Part shown: one piece after another, positions 6,332 to 27,044 of the stretch | How positions within the stretch are numbered: the first letter of the stretch is position 1 | Layout: every line of letters begins with the position of its first letter | Assembly (NCBI GenBank): GCA_001799395.1 | Contig: MGTJ01000068.1 | Coordinates: forward strand, 1-50,160 | DNA length: 50,160 nucleotides | Direction of reading: 5' to 3' | DNA from: Desulfobacterales bacterium RIFOXYA12_FULL_46_15 | Lineage (GTDB): Bacteria; Desulfobacterota; Desulfobacteria; Desulfobacterales; Desulfobacteraceae | Position numbers and translations under genes: made by a program | The notes under the pieces: model-generated | Databases searched by the model: none | Told to the model about the DNA's origin: nothing | The model's input: the letters and a program-made list of their open reading frames with translations, nothing else

Positions 6332-7876
6332 TCAAAGGTTTTCATGTTTGACTACCGGGTGTTTTTTCAGGTATTCCAGCCGGTTCAGGCCGTTGATATA
6401 GGCCAGGGCGCTGGCAATGATGATATCTGAATCCGCTCCTTTCCCAAGTGCCATGATCCCGTCTTCTTCCAGACGGACCATAACTTCGCCCTGGGCATCG
6501 GTTCCTTCGGTCAGAGCTGAAATGGTGAATCTTAAAAGCTTGGATTTGGTCCCGGTCAGCTTGGAGATAATATTATACACTGCGTCAATGGGGCCGGTAC
6601 CCTCGGTGGCCCCCTGAACCGGCCGGCCATTGATGTTCAACTGGACACTGGCTGTGGGGAAAACCGTATTCCCGGACAGGACATGGATATACTCCAGACA
6701 GAAGGTTTCAGAACTTCTCAATACACCTTCATTGATCAGGGCTTCGATGTCTTCATCCTGGATATTTTTTTTCTTGTCAGCCAGGCGTTTGAATTTTTCA
6801 AAAACCCTGTCCAGTTCCTCTTTGGACAGATTATACCCCAGTTTTTGAACATGATCGTTCAAGGCGTGGCGGCCGGAGTGTTTCCCCAGAACCAGGTTGT
6901 TTTTATTAAGACCGATGGTTTCAGGGTTCATGATTTCATAGGTCATGGGGTTTTTCAATACACCATCCTGGTGGATACCTGCTTCATGGGCAAAGGCATT
7001 GGCACCGACAATGGCCCGGTTGGGCTGGACCAGGATGCCGGTGATCATGCTGACCAGACGGCTGGTGGGGTAAATCCGCTTTGTATCAATGGTCGTGGTC
7101 TGGGGGAAAAAATTCGGCCTTGTATGAAGCGACATGACCACTTCTTCAAGGGATGTATTACCGGCCCTTTCACCGATCCCGTTAACCGTGACTTCCACCT
7201 GTCTCGCACCTGCCTTGATGGCGGCCAGGGTATTGGATGTGGCAAGCCCGAGATCATTGTGGCAATGAACGCTCAATACAGCCTTATGCATATTTGGCGT
7301 GTTTTTCATGACATAGGTGACCAGCTCTGCATATTCTTCGGGGATTGCATACCCTACGGTATCCGGGAGGTTGACGGTTGTTGCACCCGCATCAATAACC
7401 GCTTCAAACACTTTGCACAGAAAATCAGGATCAGACCTTGACCCGTCTTCTGCTGAAAATTCCACATTATCGGTATAGGAGGCAGCCAGTTGAACCGATT
7501 TGACGGCCTGGTCCAGAACTTTTTCCGGGTCCATCTGGAGTTTATATTTCATGTGCAGTTCTGAAGTGGCAATAAAGGTGTGAATTCGAGGGTGTGCCGC
7601 ATTTTTTATAGCTTCCCAGCCTCTTTTGATATCCTCTTCATTGGCCCGGCACAGGGCCGCCACCTGGGCGGTTTTCAGGGTTTCTGCAATGGCTTTGACA
7701 GATTCAAAGTCGCCTTCCGATGCAGCCGGAAACCCGGCTTCGATAACGTTTACACCCAATGTTTCAAGCTGGGTCGCGATCCTGAGTTTTTCAGCCTGGT
7801 TCATGCTGGCGCCGGGCGATTGTTCGCCGTCTCTTAAGGTTGTGTCAAAAATAATGATCTGGTTATCTGTTGTCAT
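6332..7876 (-). CDS. leuA: 2-isopropylmalate synthase
   Basis: This enzyme condenses acetyl-CoA with 2-oxoisovalerate to 2-isopropylmalate, the first committed step of leucine synthesis. At 514 residues it is full length for the bacterial LeuA type 1 group. The catalytic TIM barrel starts with [16 protein letters not shown] and contains the metal-binding HCHNDLG motif and GERAGN. The C-terminal third is the LeuA dimer/allosteric domain that senses leucine. It is the last gene of the operon, and its ATG lies one base after the cimA stop. LeuA and CimA are related, but the start motif (DGEQSPG here, DGMQGEN in the neighbour) separates them. Control probably comes mainly from the attenuator ahead of ilvD and from feedback by leucine. 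Confidence 0.97.
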
Positions 7877-19665: not shown

Positions 19666-20394
19666 ATGGAAAAAGACAGGCTGTTTGCCGGGAAAAAAGA
19701 AAAAAAAGAACCCTTTCAATTCAACAGGGAAGTGGCTGAAGTGTTTGACGATATGCTCAACCGTTCCGTGCCGTTCTATTGGGAAAGCATCAGACGCCAG
19801 GCTGAGATAACTTTGGAGTATTATCAGGACAAAAGCCGTGTATATGATCTGGGATGTTCCAACGGCAATCTCGGCCTTTTGATCCTGGACCGGATGAAAG
19901 ACCGGAAATTTACCCTGATCGGGGTTGACAGCTCCATGCCCATGATTGAAAAATATGCCAAACGGCTCAGAGAAAACCATGATCAAAAGCCTGTCCGCCT
20001 TGTCTGTGGATTCCTGGAAGACGTAAAGATCCAAAATGCCTCGGTGGTGCTGATCAACCTGACCCTTCAATTTATTGATCCGCAAAAGCGGGATTCAGTC
20101 TTGACTCGTATTTTCCAGGGCCTGAACCCGGGTGGCATTCTTTTATTAACGGAAAAAACCGTTCACGGCAAACAGGAATTCAATGACCTTCAAACCCGCT
20201 TTTATAAGAAATTCAAACTTGAAAACGGGTATTCCGAACTTGAGATCAGCCGGAAAAGAGAGGCCCTTGAAAATGTGCTGTGCCCGGATACCGTTGAAAC
20301 CCATGAAAAAAGACTGAAGCAGGCCGGTTTTGAATCCATTGATCTCTGGCTGAAATGGTTTAATTTTGCATCCTTTATTGCGGTTAAGAAATAA
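19666..20394 (+). CDS. cmoA: Carboxy-S-adenosyl-L-methionine synthase
   Basis: CmoA converts S-adenosylmethionine and prephenate to carboxy-SAM, the donor for cmo5U34 wobble modification of tRNA. At 242 residues it is the standard length, with the SAM-binding loop YDLGCSNGNLGL and the family-specific segments GVDSSMPMIEKYAKRL and VLINLTLQFI. CmoB follows three bases downstream, which makes the assignment firm. A possible weak promoter (TTGCAC at 19605, TATAAA at 19626) lies just upstream. Confidence 0.95.
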   Translation: MEKDRLFAGKKEKKEPFQFNREVAEVFDDMLNRSVPFYWESIRRQAEITLEYYQDKSRVYDLGCSNGNLGLLILDRMKDRKFTLIGVDSSMPMIEKYAKRLRENHDQKPVRLVCGFLEDVKIQNASVVLINLTLQFIDPQKRDSVLTRIFQGLNPGGILLLTEKTVHGKQEFNDLQTRFYKKFKLENGYSELEISRKREALENVLCPDTVETHEKRLKQAGFESIDLWLKWFNFASFIAVKK

Positions 20395-20397
20395 ACC

Positions 20398-21369
20398 ATG
20401 GAAAGACTTCTGCAAAACATCAAAACGCTGAGGCTCAATCATTGTCATACCGAACTTGACACACTGATCAAAAAAAAAAGAACGTTTCTGGATCAGGCAA
20501 AGGGTAATTTTTTAAAATTCAGGAAAATTGTCGAAAAAATTCAGGATCACGTTCCGTCGGTTATTGATCTGGATGACCGGGTGGTCACCGTCGGCAACCC
20601 GGCCGATCTGGACCCTGAAGCATCAAAAGCGCTTTATCATAGCCTTGATAAGCTCAGCCCCTGGCGCAAAGGGCCATTTAATCTTTTTGGGATTCATATT
20701 GATTCGGAATGGCAATCCTGGATGAAATGGGAAAGGCTTTCCCCCCACATCAAAAGCCTCAAAGGCCGGTGTATACTGGATATAGGGTCCAGCAACGGAT
20801 ATTACATGTTCAGGGCCGCGGCTAAAGCCCCCTTCATGGTGCTGGGTCTGGAACCCCAGAGTTATTTTTATTTTCAATACCTGGCCATACAGAAATTCCT
20901 GAAAAAGGACAATGTCTTCTGTCTTCCCATTCCCCATGATGAACTGCCCAAAACAGACCACTATTTTGATACGGTATTCTGCATGGGAGTCCTTTACCAC
21001 AGGCCGTCCCCGGTCGAAATGCTGAGGGAGATCCATGATTCCATGAAAAAAGGCGGGGAACTGGTTCTTGAAAACCTGATCCTGGAAACACGGGAGAATA
21101 TCTGTCTTTTCCCCAGGGACCGGTACGCAAAAATGCGAAATGTTTATTTTATCCCGGATTATTTATCCATGGAATCCTGGCTTTTGCGGGCCGGGTTCAT
21201 AAATGTCCGGTGCGTGGATGTCGCTAAGACAGCTCTGGAAGAACAGAGAAAAACAAGGTGGATCCAGACCGAATCATTAAAGGATTTTCTTGACCCTGAT
21301 GATCCTGATAAAACCATAGAAGGATATCCGGCCCCGGTCCGGGCCATTTTCCTGGCAGATGCAGGTTGA
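20398..21369 (+). CDS. cmoB: tRNA U34 carboxymethyltransferase
   Basis: CmoB transfers the carboxymethyl group of carboxy-SAM to 5-hydroxyuridine 34 of tRNA, giving cmo5U and widening wobble decoding. At 323 residues it is full length, with the N-terminal CmoB-specific region (LSPWRKGPFNLFGIHIDSEW) and the methyltransferase core (LDIGSSNGYYMFRA, FCMGVLYHRPSPVEML). It is directly coupled to cmoA. The intergenic region after it changes character and leads into the GNAT islet. Confidence 0.96.
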   Translation: MERLLQNIKTLRLNHCHTELDTLIKKKRTFLDQAKGNFLKFRKIVEKIQDHVPSVIDLDDRVVTVGNPADLDPEASKALYHSLDKLSPWRKGPFNLFGIHIDSEWQSWMKWERLSPHIKSLKGRCILDIGSSNGYYMFRAAAKAPFMVLGLEPQSYFYFQYLAIQKFLKKDNVFCLPIPHDELPKTDHYFDTVFCMGVLYHRPSPVEMLREIHDSMKKGGELVLENLILETRENICLFPRDRYAKMRNVYFIPDYLSMESWLLRAGFINVRCVDVAKTALEEQRKTRWIQTESLKDFLDPDDPDKTIEGYPAPVRAIFLADAG

Positions 21370-22386: not shown

Positions 22387-22581
22387 TCAAGCCTGTCTTG
22401 TGCACCTCAGATTACAATTCCTGTGGCTGACGCTGATGGCGTGCCCATCGGGCTTTCTTTTGTTGCAGGATATGGGCAGGATATGATGCTTATAAGCTTT
22501 TGCAATCAATTATATTCACGAGTGTTTTGGCCGCGTGAGCCAGGTTTCATGGTTGCCAAAGAGGTACCCACTATCCCATGA
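22387..22581 (+). pseudogene. C-terminal remnant of an amidase (GatA-like) gene
   Basis: A 64-codon open stretch contains APQITIPVADADGVPIGLSF followed by VAGYGQDMMLI. This matches the conserved end of amidase-signature enzymes, where the usual form is LPQITIP...DGLPVGLSFVG..GSD. A stop codon lies directly upstream (22384) and the rest of the amidase (Ser-Ser-Lys catalytic core, about 400 residues) is missing, so this is a truncated relic. Its end overlaps the end of the convergent Hsp70-like gene by 11 bases. Confidence 0.7.
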
Positions 22582-23857
22582 GACTGCCGTACAATCCCAG
22601 GCCATAAGCAACGCTGGTAAATGCATTGCCGCTCCTGATCCTGTCCTTGTCCAGCCGTTTTTCGAACAAGCCCCGGATCAGGGGGATATAAGAAGATCCT
22701 CCGGTCAGGAAGACAACATCAATATCGGCAGCCTTAAGGCCTGCATCTGCCAGGGTTGAATCGATGCAGGTATCGATGGCAGCGGCCTTTTCGCGGATCA
22801 TGGCTTCAAATTCATCCCTGGACAAAAACTCGTCAATGCAGATACCGTAATCATGGAACCGGATGCGTGATGACTCCCGTCCGGACAGCTCGCATTTTGT
22901 TTTTTCAATGGACTGGAACAGGAGGTAGCCGTAATTGGCCTCGATCAGGTTTTCCAGATTGCCGATCAGTTCCTTGTCCCTGAAACTTGCCGTAACCTTG
23001 AGTTCCTTGATATTGTTCAATGTCGCCGGCCGCCGGAGCTGCGGAATGAGATGCCAGTGCAAAAGGTTTCGGATCACAACAGGGGAAAGCCCGAAATAAT
23101 TGTCGCTGAACATGGATTTGGCCTGGACATTTTTTCCGTAATAGGCGGCTGTTTTTTCTTTCATGATGTCTGAGTCAAACAGATCCCCCCCGATATATAC
23201 ACCGCCCACTGACAGGATATCCTTTTCCCGCCCGGTCCGGCTGCCCGCATGTTTCCCGGCCTTGTGAATAGTGAAATCCGAACTGCCCGCCCCAAAATCA
23301 CCCACCAGTACAATCTGTTCAACTCCTGGCGAAAGGCTGTTTTCATAGGCCAGGGCCGCTGCAATAGGTTCCATCTGGAAAGCGATGTTCTTGAACCCGG
23401 CCAGCCGGGCTGCACTCTCCAGGCGATCCTGAGCGATCCGGTCCCGCTCCCGGTCCTCGGAAAAAATTACAGGACGCCCTAGGACCAGGTCTGACACATC
23501 CCTGCCAATGAGAGTTTCGCCACGCTCTTTCATAACCCTGAAAAAAATAGAGATCAATTCTTCCAGGGTGTAGCGTTTCCCGTAAATGGAAGTCTTTTCA
23601 AAAGCCGTATCCGGCAGAAAAGTCTTGATGGACTGCATGTACCTGCCGTCTGCCCCGTTTTCAATATATTTGTTGACCCCTTCATATCCGACATAGGTGG
23701 TGGTCTGCCCGTCTTCCTTTAAAAAATAGAGAATGGATTTCAAAGAATTGGAAATGGGGTTTCCCCTGTCCACGTCCAGCATCCGTACCGTGTTGTTTTC
23801 GTTGACGGACAATGCGGAGTTGGATGTGCCGAAATCAATGCCGAAGATCGCTGACAT
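22571..23857 (-). CDS. Hsp70-like ATPase (YegD family)
   Basis: This is a 428-residue protein made of the Hsp70/actin ATPase domain only, lacking the substrate-binding and lid domains of DnaK. The phosphate-1 loop is FGIDFGTSNSALSV, phosphate-2 is VLVGDFGAGSSDFT, and the adenosine motif is VVFLTGGSSYIPLIRGLFE. The length and the GTSNSA form of the first loop match the E. coli YegD group, whose role is uncertain (putative chaperone). No DnaJ or GrpE gene adjoins. The 3' end overlaps the amidase remnant on the other strand. Confidence 0.87.
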   Translation of the reverse strand: MSAIFGIDFGTSNSALSVNENNTVRMLDVDRGNPISNSLKSILYFLKEDGQTTTYVGYEGVNKYIENGADGRYMQSIKTFLPDTAFEKTSIYGKRYTLEELISIFFRVMKERGETLIGRDVSDLVLGRPVIFSEDRERDRIAQDRLESAARLAGFKNIAFQMEPIAAALAYENSLSPGVEQIVLVGDFGAGSSDFTIHKAGKHAGSRTGREKDILSVGGVYIGGDLFDSDIMKEKTAAYYGKNVQAKSMFSDNYFGLSPVVIRNLLHWHLIPQLRRPATLNNIKELKVTASFRDKELIGNLENLIEANYGYLLFQSIEKTKCELSGRESSRIRFHDYGICIDEFLSRDEFEAMIREKAAAIDTCIDSTLADAGLKAADIDVVFLTGGSSYIPLIRGLFEKRLDKDRIRSGNAFTSVAYGLGLYGSLMG

Positions 23858-24031: not shown

Positions 24032-24394
24032 ATGAAAAAAGAAGATTTGGATTTTTTTAAGAATCTTTTAACAGAGAGGCTCACTGAGCTTCTTTCCCAT
24101 GCTGATAGTACGGTTACCGGAATGACAAAGCCCAAAGAGAATTTTGCCGACCCTACAGACCGGGCTTCCCACGAGGCAGACAGAAGTTTTGAATTAAGAA
24201 TCAGGGACCGTGAACATAAGCTGATCAAGAAAATACGAAACGCACTTGAGCGAATTGAAAATGGGAATTTCGGGGTATGTGAGACCTGTGATGAAGAAAT
24301 TTCCATTCAACGCCTCAAGGCGAGACCTGTTACCACCCAGTGCATTGATTGTAAAACCCGTGAAGAGGATATGGAAAAAGCCCTTGGTATTTAG
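24032..24394 (+). CDS. dksA: DksA/TraR family zinc-finger transcription factor
   Basis: This is a 120-residue RNA polymerase secondary-channel protein that works with ppGpp to adjust rRNA and amino acid promoters. The coiled-coil N-terminal part carries the acidic tip segment ADPTDRASHEAD with the aspartates needed for activity. The C-terminal zinc finger has four cysteines (CETCDEE and CIDCKTRE). The final residues EDMEKALGI form the terminal helix. It is short compared with E. coli DksA (151 residues), as is usual in Deltaproteobacteria. The next gene starts 18 bases downstream. Confidence 0.92.
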   Translation: MKKEDLDFFKNLLTERLTELLSHADSTVTGMTKPKENFADPTDRASHEADRSFELRIRDREHKLIKKIRNALERIENGNFGVCETCDEEISIQRLKARPVTTQCIDCKTREEDMEKALGI

Positions 24395-24412: not shown

Positions 24413-25969
24413 TTGATTGACCTTCACATACATTCAACTGCATCAGACGGTTCTCTCACCCCTTTGGAAATTTTGGCCCTGGCCGGGGAAACAGGGCTTA
24501 AGGCCATTTCCATTACCGACCATGATACCATTGACGGTGTCCTTGAAATACTAAAACAACTCACCTGCACATGTCTGGAATTTATTACCGGTGTTGAAAT
24601 CAGTTGCGAACCCCCTCCCGGATTTAGCAATCTTGGCAGTATCCACCTTTTGGGGTATGGGTTCAGCGTTTATGATAAAAAGCTCAATGCAATCTTGAAT
24701 ACTGCAAAAAAAGCCAGGATACAGAGAAATCCGAAAATTATTGAAAAACTGAATCTCCTCGGGGTTGAGATCAGCATGGACCAGGTCCGGGCCCGTTTCG
24801 GCGCGGATCAGACAGGGCGGCCCCATATTGCAGAACTTTTAAAGGAATTGGGCTATGTAAAAACCTTTCATGAGGCCTTTGATATATATCTCGGCAAAGG
24901 TAAACCCGCCTATGTGGAAAAATATAAAGTATCCTGCGAGGAGGCGATAAAGACTGTTATAGAGGCTGGCGGAATTCCTGTGCTGGCCCATCCGGGGCTC
25001 CTTTCCTTTGCCGGAAGCGATCAGGTCGAAGGCTTTATCGATACCCTTATAGAGTACGGCCTTGGTGGTGTAGAGGTCTATTATACGGACCATAGTGAGC
25101 CTGTCACTTCTTTTTATAAAAACTTCTGCACCCGGAAAAATCTGATTGCAACAGGGGGTTCGGATTTCCACGGGTCTTTCAATGAAGGGGTTTTTCTGGG
25201 TAAGGGCAATAATAATCTGAATATCTGTTTTTCAGTATTCAAATCATTAAACGCCCGGCTGGAAAAAAATAAGGAAGCCGATACGGATATTCTTGAAAAT
25301 AATATGGGGTATAGATTTAAAAGCAGATCATTTTTAAATAATGCCCTTTGTCACAGGTCTTATCTGAATGAGAATCAGAATACCTGTGATTCAGACAATG
25401 AACGGCTGGAGTTTTTAGGGGATGCAGTACTCGGGCTTTGTATTGCCCAGCTTTTGATGGAAAAAAGTCCTTTAAAAAAAGAAGGAGAGCTTTCCAAACT
25501 AAGGGCTAGCCTGGTCAGTGAGCCGGCCCTGGCACAAATGGCAAGAACCATTGATCTTGGACGGTTCATCAGGCTTGGGAAGGGTGAAGCAATTTCCAGG
25601 GGGCATGACAAGAATTCCATCTTGTCGGATGCATTTGAGGCCGTGATTGCCGCTGTATACCTGGATAGCGGGTTTGAACAGGCCTGTGGGCTGATTCGCC
25701 ACCTTTTCAATGAAGTCCTGGATGAGGTGGTGTCCAATGAAAAGATCATTGATTATAAAAGCCAACTTCAGGAATATGCCCAGGAAAGGGGGGTCGCAAC
25801 CCCTTGTTATGTTGTGGTGAATGAGACAGGCCCTGACCACGATAAAACTTTTGAGATGTGTTTAACCCTTTTTGGGTTTGAATCCAGGGGATTTGGAAAA
25901 ACAAAAAAATCTGCCGAACAGGATACGGCAAAAAAAACCTTAATAAAGCTGAAAGAGGTTTTTCCTTAA
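24413..25969 (+). CDS. rnc: PHP-domain phosphoesterase fused to ribonuclease III
   Basis: This is a single 518-residue frame joining two normally separate enzymes. Residues 1-285 are a PHP metal phosphoesterase of the YciV/RNase AM type, with H5, H7, D12, D36-H37-D38 (SITDHDT), E62, H193 (LAHPG) and D251-H253 (GGSDFHG) all intact. Residues 298-440 are RNase III, with the signature NERLEFLGD (E330, D337) and D406/E409 (DAFEAVIAAVYLD), matching E. coli D45, D114 and E117. Residues 445-518 are a double-stranded RNA-binding domain ending GKTKKSAEQDTAKKTL. Only about 15 charged residues link the halves. The C-terminal 221 codons alone equal a normal rnc gene. Translation begins at TTG. RNase III cuts rRNA precursor stems and RNase AM trims rRNA 5' ends, so a joint rRNA-maturation role is inferred. 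An internal ATG at 25304 could also yield free RNase III, but no ribosome-binding site is seen there. Confidence 0.93.
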   Translation: MIDLHIHSTASDGSLTPLEILALAGETGLKAISITDHDTIDGVLEILKQLTCTCLEFITGVEISCEPPPGFSNLGSIHLLGYGFSVYDKKLNAILNTAKKARIQRNPKIIEKLNLLGVEISMDQVRARFGADQTGRPHIAELLKELGYVKTFHEAFDIYLGKGKPAYVEKYKVSCEEAIKTVIEAGGIPVLAHPGLLSFAGSDQVEGFIDTLIEYGLGGVEVYYTDHSEPVTSFYKNFCTRKNLIATGGSDFHGSFNEGVFLGKGNNNLNICFSVFKSLNARLEKNKEADTDILENNMGYRFKSRSFLNNALCHRSYLNENQNTCDSDNERLEFLGDAVLGLCIAQLLMEKSPLKKEGELSKLRASLVSEPALAQMARTIDLGRFIRLGKGEAISRGHDKNSILSDAFEAVIAAVYLDSGFEQACGLIRHLFNEVLDEVVSNEKIIDYKSQLQEYAQERGVATPCYVVVNETGPDHDKTFEMCLTLFGFESRGFGKTKKSAEQDTAKKTLIKLKEVFP

Positions 25970-25982
25970 TAATGGGTTGCCT

Positions 25983-27044
25983 ATGAATCTGCCGGCAAAA
26001 CCCCTTGTCATTCCCGTATTTATTCCCCATTCCGGTTGCCCCCATCAGTGTGCTTTCTGTAACCAGTCCGTTATAACCTCAAAAAAATTACCATTGCCAT
26101 GTCTTTTAGACATTGAAGAGTCAGTCAGCCAGTATCTGAAATTTAAAGGCAGACGGGAAAAGGTGGAGATCGCCTTTTTCGGTGGTAATTTTCTGGGGCT
26201 TAGCCGGGAAACCCTTATCTGCCTGCTGGATTATATAAAACCCTATATCCGTGAAAATAAAATTCACGGCATCCGGTTTTCCACCCGTCCTGATACAATC
26301 ACACAGGAAACCCTTGAACTGATTTCACCCTATCCCATATCTGCAGTTGAAATCGGGGTCCAGTCCATGAATGATAAGGTTCTTTTTGCATCAAAAAGAG
26401 GACATACCAGCCTTGATATCATCAATGCCATGGCAAGACTCAAACAAATCCCGGTGAAAATCGGGGTTCAGGTCATGGTGGGGTTGCCAAAGGATGATGA
26501 AACATCATTATTTGAGAGCACACGGAAAATCGCCGGTCTTTTACCTGATTTTGCAAGAATCTATCCTTTAATGGTGCTGAAGGGCAGCATGATGGAGAAA
26601 TGGTATGCCCAAGGCCGGTATCAACCCCTGGACTTGCCGGAGGCGACACGGCTTGCCAAAGAGATGTATCGGATATTCCGGGCAGCCGGTATCGATGTGA
26701 TTCGTATGGGACTCCAGGCATCGGATATGATGGAGGACCCGTCCATGGTCCTTGCCGGCCCATGGCACCCGGCCTTCGGACATCTCGTTTTTTCAGAAAT
26801 GATGTATGACACCGTTTGTGAGAGAATTGACCGATGCCCGGATCTTTACAGGCCAGAGACGCTTGTCCTGACGGTTCACTCAAGATCCGTATCCAGGCTG
26901 AGAGGAGAGAAAAACAGCAATATGAAAAAATTGAATATAAAATATCCGGGGCATGAATTTATAACCCGTACGGATGATGATCTTGACATGGATGATATCG
27001 AAATTCATGGATGTGATAAAATAAATAAAGGAAGAACAGAATGA
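25983..27044 (+). CDS. Elp3-like radical SAM protein
   Basis: This radical S-adenosylmethionine protein of about 353 residues carries the cluster motif Cx3Cx2C in SGCPHQCAFCNQ near residue 20, then FFGGNFLGL, the glycine-rich SAM-binding strand, and VEIGVQSMNDKVL, typical of the Elp3/HemN-like branch. It lacks the acetyltransferase domain of true Elp3. The same family often lies beside rnc in other bacteria (recalled, not checked), and here it follows the PHP-RNase III gene by 13 bases. RNA modification is a reasonable guess, but the reaction is unknown. The frame extends to a TTG at 25977; the ATG at 25983 is preferred. The final codons overlap the dipeptidase start by 4 bases. Confidence 0.87.
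   Translation: MNLPAKPLVIPVFIPHSGCPHQCAFCNQSVITSKKLPLPCLLDIEESVSQYLKFKGRREKVEIAFFGGNFLGLSRETLICLLDYIKPYIRENKIHGIRFSTRPDTITQETLELISPYPISAVEIGVQSMNDKVLFASKRGHTSLDIINAMARLKQIPVKIGVQVMVGLPKDDETSLFESTRKIAGLLPDFARIYPLMVLKGSMMEKWYAQGRYQPLDLPEATRLAKEMYRIFRAAGIDVIRMGLQASDMMEDPSMVLAGPWHPAFGHLVFSEMMYDTVCERIDRCPDLYRPETLVLTVHSRSVSRLRGEKNSNMKKLNIKYPGHEFITRTDDDLDMDDIEIHGCDKINKGRTE

Follow-up and report, generated by a model that had tools for sequence, protein, structure and literature searches.

A PHP phosphoesterase-RNase III fusion gene in the Desulfobacterales, putatively encoding a two-step ribonuclease

The stretch of DNA analysed here, hereafter the window, comprises 50,160 nucleotides of the genome of Desulfobacterales bacterium RIFOXYA12_FULL_46_15. 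Between dksA and a radical SAM gene it carries a single frame in which a PHP-family phosphoesterase is joined to RNase III. The features of this locus are the following (aa, residues of the fused protein; AF2, AlphaFold2):

24032..24394, plus strand: dksA, the upstream neighbour, directly upstream in 128/128 fused or split loci with enough sequence
24413..25969, plus strand: PHP-RNase III fusion gene, 518 codons, TTG start
24413..25246, plus strand: PHP phosphoesterase half (aa 1-278), RNase AM / CV1693-like, including R102, R105, R136 and F156
25229..25306, plus strand: junction, with an AF2 helix at 273-289 followed by a helix at 291-298; linker at about aa 279-297
25295..25948, plus strand: RNase III catalytic domain and dsRBD (aa 295-512), with E330, E333, D337, D406 and E409
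25304..25306, plus strand: internal ATG (aa 298), proposed as an alternative rnc start; not conserved and with no SD-like motif
25977..27044, plus strand: radical SAM gene, Elp3/YtqA-like (below the cut-offs of those models), the downstream neighbour in 119/125 loci with enough sequence

No tRNA and no Rfam family were found in the window. On its minus strand, at 22571-23857 and divergent from dksA, lies a gene for a 428-aa HSP70-like chaperone of the PRK11678 kind, which scores below the cut-off of that model. At 19666-21369, cmoA and cmoB (tRNA wobble uridine modification) adjoin, each above its TIGRFAM-type cut-off.

The two halves of the fused protein

A first-pass annotation of this DNA had described a complete PHP domain and a complete RNase III with its dsRBD in one 518-codon frame, a description that is confirmed by the open frame itself and by both Pfam and NCBIfam. 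Pfam places PHP at aa 3-69, Ribonucleas_3_3 at 307-431, Ribonuclease_3 at 330-420 and dsrm at 448-513. Every one of the active-site motifs that had been named is present in the fused frame, and the estimate of a linker of about 15 residues proved correct. Upstream of the TTG start, an AGGA motif recognised by eye ends 7 bases before it. The comparisons below draw on 132 non-redundant loci with both genes, obtained from 162 usable ones, of which 55 are fused and 77 split, counts that are not to be read as frequencies because most loci were picked for full-length matches or long frames.

RNase III is a homodimer that cleaves double-stranded RNA and leaves 5'-phosphate ends and 3' overhangs of 2 nt. 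Residues 295-512 of the fused protein score as RNase III (TIGR02191, 237 bits against a cut-off of 166) and display the NERLEFLGDA signature and the acidic catalytic residues, and the C-terminal dsRBD is present in the AF2 model as well as in the Pfam search. The resemblance to bacterial RNase III extends over the full catalytic domain, the dsRBD and the catalytic residues, but in the fusion an enzyme domain of some 280 residues stands N-terminal to it, in the place of a start codon of its own. We take E330, E333, D337, D406 and E409 to be the equivalents of the E. coli catalytic residues. Those at 333, 337, 406 and 409 are retained in 55/55 fused genes, and position 330, the first Glu of NERLEF, is Glu in 45/55 of them, the window's gene included, and Gln in the other 10 (L031, L032, L051-L055, L063, L160 and L161) as well as in 1/77 split genes (L159). 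At the position that presumably corresponds to E. coli D114, Asp is found in 55/55 fused and 48/77 split genes, the other split genes having Asn (23) or Gly (6) within a neighbouring motif that is otherwise intact; once corrected for the tree, the association of this Asp with the fusion state comes down to four independent pairs with a median p of 1. The possibility of a separate rnc elsewhere in the genome, which had been raised earlier, was also examined: a search of the window's genome, rated 96% complete, with the RNase III model matched the fused gene only.

The kinship of the PHP half has to be judged from model scores, solved structures and residues. Among the NCBIfam PHP models the top score is that of the 3',5'-nucleoside bisphosphate phosphatase (NF041577; 171 bits over aa 2-277, cut-off 400), against 152 bits over aa 1-255 for RNase RNM (NF047791; cut-off 375). 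Scored alone, the PHP half reaches 174 and 153 bits, respectively, again under both cut-offs. Its best sequence match among solved structures, at 113 bits, is 2yb1, which we take to be the 3',5'-nucleoside bisphosphate phosphatase CV1693; CV1693 differs from the window's protein in standing alone, and the NCBIfam phosphatase model remains below its cut-off for the PHP half. One distant PHP paralogue occurs elsewhere in the window's genome, with 35% identity over the PHP half and scores below both cut-offs. A Foldseek search with the AF2 model returned as first match the RNase AM of V. cholerae (9etk), aligned to the PHP half, followed by RNase III structures from E. coli and other species; none of the 50 matches listed is a PHP-RNase III protein by its title. 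RNase AM (YciV/Rnm; 7ug9 from E. coli, 9etk from V. cholerae) shares with the PHP half the fold and the residues of the active site and the 5'-phosphate pocket, at 20-26% identity in the fold alignment. It differs in that the PHP half is here joined to RNase III and falls below the RNase RNM cut-off.

At the residue level, the relationship to RNase AM that had been proposed is borne out. Nine PHP active-site residues were tested and found invariant in 55/55 fused and 77/77 split genes, and the same conservation applies to the pocket-matching R102, R105, R136 and F156; H138 is kept in 54/55 fused and 76/77 split genes. R105 is the sole invariant column across 43 rows, one of which holds RNase III only. 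D12, E62, D251 and H253 align with D20, E72, D255 and H257 of RNase AM, and the four pocket residues with R107, R110, R141 and F161 of the E. coli enzyme; for the other PHP ligands among the nine tested positions, the assignment is our assumption. One study gives the roles of D20, E72, D255 and H257, and in it the authors place R107, R110, R141 and F161 in the 5'-phosphate pocket or at the stacked base and describe the digestion of 5'-phosphate RNA by RNase AM starting at the 5' end (PMC9410882). A related clue, from a second study, is the co-localisation of yciO genes with rnm genes in many species (PMC12506659). By these residues the PHP half groups with RNase AM / TrpH, and a 5'-phosphate-dependent 5'->3' exoribonuclease activity is predicted for it.

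The PHP half may nevertheless be mainly a small-substrate phosphatase. The first place of the phosphatase model among the PHP models is consistent with a scenario in which packed genes fused in a nearly neutral manner and the PHP half acts alone on pAp, nanoRNA or FAD-capped 5' ends and receives nothing from RNase III; FAD caps are also removed by RNase AM (PMC9410882). We regard this scenario as possible but rather unlikely, and further evidence on it comes from the distribution of the fusion, its gene neighbourhood and its junction.

Distribution, gene neighbourhood and history of the fusion

The fused frame is found in 34 of the 35 genomes of the window's family, its own included, so that neither chance nor sequencing error can account for it. 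Two of these 34 loci (G007 and G014) end at contig edges yet span the junction, and the 35th genome (G031, 70% complete) has just a distant PHP match. The nearest named relatives among the 80 best matches belong to Desulfobacula, then to Desulfobacter and Desulfamplus, and the loci of the window's family coincide with records of these three genera. The same frame is present in independent assemblies, such as those of Desulfobacter vibrioformis DSM 8776 (L049) and of a single-contig genome of the window's own genus (G008). This refutes the sequencing artefact that had been considered at first, and with it an assembly error at the junction. The idea that relatives would always keep the two genes separate has fared less uniformly: separate neighbours are the case in most sampled families of the order, whereas the genes are fused throughout the window's family. 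In a sample of 211 genomes of the order, 13/13 of the window's family are fused, and outside it at least 12 of 198 genomes, in eight further families, carry a fusion, each of the 12 having been checked. The presence of the fusion in 34/35 family genomes and in several other lineages speaks against a near-neutral event.

Beyond the order, no full-length fusion match was found among the matches listed for 152 genomes (of 158 phylum genomes), and in the phylum of G394 (Clostridiaceae) 0/101 genomes gave a match at E <= 1e-85, a weak result from a run without a positive control. Other phyla are covered through the 80 best matches of the search for relatives. Two other genomes of the phylum (G259 and G374; loci L198 and L199) have long frames around rnc that do not look like fusions; inspected by eye, these resemble overlapping frames left open in GC-rich DNA, extending over the upstream gene, which we take to be MtaB-like. 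At L199 (1154-5093) rnc lies between this gene and presumably radical-SAM-like and Era-like genes, an arrangement read by eye, by which rnc may have been paired with the radical SAM gene before it came to adjoin php.

The split relatives examined have php and rnc next to each other, flanked by dksA and the radical SAM gene, which is also where the fusion lies. Considering split loci with enough sequence, dksA lies upstream in 76/76 and the radical SAM gene downstream in 71/74, and in the split loci chosen by their PHP match alone (L177-L191) rnc begins within about 330 bases after php in 15/15. The split pairs of other families of the order share with the window's gene the related halves and the order dksA - php - rnc - radical SAM, but consist of two open frames with a stop codon between them. 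This shared cluster indicates that the fusion grew from a neighbour pair. The neighbourhood is not universal, since four named loci (L077, L092, L093 and L098) show dksA - php with no rnc match in 1.4 to 4 kb downstream. The adjacency of php and rnc in split relatives would make an accidental fusion easy, which favours the near-neutral scenario; set against this, no side-by-side PHP/rnc pair was seen by eye among the matches listed for the rest of the phylum, which suggests that the adjacency within the order is meaningful. A read-through or programmed frameshift in split relatives was also considered and is unsupported: the two genes share a frame in 6/21 split loci, ranked by similarity rather than sampled at random, against about 7 by chance. 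Same-frame splits among loci picked for full-length matches or long frames are uninformative on read-through.

The history of the fusion was addressed with a tree of the two domains, excluding the linker (132 rows, 497 columns; LG+G4 in quick mode, with long-branch warnings). A 42-row group that holds the window's family is fused throughout, with a support of 100, and the remaining 13 fused rows are scattered. The tree requires at least 10 changes of fusion state, 4 of them forced by well-supported branches; a quick tree of 62 rows gives 11 changes, 5 of them forced. Monophyly of the fused genes is rejected (p-AU 1.3e-14) in a set of 27 rows hand-picked after the larger tree had been seen, with 11 of the 55 fused and 16 of the 77 split genes. 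The fused state has apparently been gained or lost repeatedly, the tree itself being blind to gain versus loss, and the linker lengths, which differ between groups, favour several fusions.

The junction: one protein or two

The remaining form of an artefact would be the translation of RNase III solely from an internal start. The ATG at 25304 that had been proposed for this role does exist, at aa 298, and is the one observation in favour of such a start; what did not hold is its significance, as relatives do not conserve it and no Shine-Dalgarno-like motif precedes it. In the region from about aa 265 to 303, an ATG occurs in 25/55 fused genes and is absent from the other 30, 13/55 have no ATG, GTG or TTG at all, and an ATG with an SD-like motif is present in 4/55. 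In the split genes the stretch examined starts where the rnc frame opens and ends at the same position; it holds an ATG in 74/77, and one accompanied by such a motif in 22/77, a proportion that makes the SD test weak when taken alone. The loss of the ATG at the old rnc start in fused genes is clear, and a conserved internal rnc start is rejected, none having been found in the 55 genes. Together with the fused frame in independent assemblies, these counts make an artefact of either form extremely improbable.

The linker evolves in a way that fits its translation. Over all 496 pairs of 32 close relatives, pN/pS is 0.47 for aa 279-297, against 0.30 for the PHP half and 0.26 for the RNase III half, and restricting the comparison to the 135 closer pairs gives 0.44, 0.22 and 0.20, respectively; at third codon positions the linker is the most variable part too. 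Both measures fit translation through the linker, though under less constraint than in the domains, and on this sequence evidence we consider that the linker is subject to a protein-level constraint weaker than that of both domains. The weaker constraint agrees with a near-neutral fusion. The length of the segment at aa 277-298, however, disagrees with it, as it measures 22-24 residues in 31/32 close relatives and 29 in the remaining one.

AlphaFold2 modelling of the monomer from a 43-row alignment (mean pLDDT 88.9, pTM 0.72) predicts that the helix at 273-289 runs almost straight into that at 291-298. In this monomer model, the almost unbroken helix of the linker suggests that the domains are held in a fixed arrangement, as would be expected if the PHP half mainly served to target or regulate RNase III, acting on substrate choice, on the placement of the dimer or on the control of its own dksA operon mRNA, with PHP catalysis being minor. 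The invariance of the nine PHP active-site residues in 55/55 fused genes leaves such a role quite improbable.

A possible two-step ribonuclease

The reading that we prefer, with chances slightly above even, is that the locus encodes a real and long-kept bifunctional two-step ribonuclease, formed when the neighbouring php and rnc of the dksA - php - rnc - radical SAM cluster became one frame. Its RNase III half would dimerise and cut double-stranded stems, for instance the leader-trailer helices of 16S and 23S rRNA, and these cuts would leave 5'-monophosphate ends. The PHP half might then remove nucleotides from the 5' ends so produced, or clear away the short 5'-phosphorylated pieces set free by the cut. 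Through the fusion, each RNase III dimer would carry two PHP sites, with the activities held at a one-to-one ratio, and the simplest mechanism would be that the 5'-phosphate end passes to a PHP site within that dimer. The more specific proposal of a single-polypeptide RNA maturase, in whose dimer cleavage by RNase III is coupled to 5' trimming of the RNase AM type, is put forward tentatively and we would not call it probable.

The RNAs used by the fusion enzyme may include rRNA. The 16S and 23S genes of three single-contig family genomes are enclosed by leader-trailer helices that beat 200/200 mononucleotide shuffles in all six tests, the rRNA ends being taken from Rfam and two of the 23S genes being placed by similarity to the third. 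These helices are likely RNase III substrates, a conclusion with no bearing on the PHP half acting there. Partial 16S copies beside full ones occur in three single-contig family genomes (G008:C1:16903-17465, G141:C1:918946-919792 and G238:C1:3654970-3656184), and at another locus (L195) positions 7167-7421 match a group II intron, about 1.5 kb past the 5S gene of an rRNA operon. A coupling of the fusion to the maturation of rRNA 5' ends is plausible.

Other enzymes could act on the same ends. A gene of the TIGR00649 family, which we take to be RNase J, is present in 8/8 genomes tested, so another 5'-3' exonuclease is probably available; this argues against the PHP half as the sole rRNA 5'-trimmer. 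Two RNase E/G genes are also found in 8/8 genomes tested. These other routes of 5'-end maturation, together with the position of the PHP half under the NCBIfam cut-offs, count against the two-step ribonuclease, and the many species of the order that keep both proteins separate indicate that neither activity depends on the fusion.

Both enzyme families are known, and the joined architecture appears to be new; a literature search conducted outside most subscription journals found no paper on a PHP-RNase III architecture. Gene fusions hint at proteins working together, and this one, which apparently formed (or was lost) more than once, ties a little-studied family of 5'-3' exoribonucleases to RNase III. 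It constitutes a natural construct for asking if the endonucleolytic release of rRNA or other structured RNA is coupled to the trimming of its 5' end. If the RNA maturase proposal is true, the repeated fusion of php and rnc and their adjacency across the order would mark RNase AM-type enzymes as general processing partners of RNase III, even where RNase J is probably encoded too. The fusion suggests that one protein may both cut and trim RNA in these sulfate-reducing bacteria.
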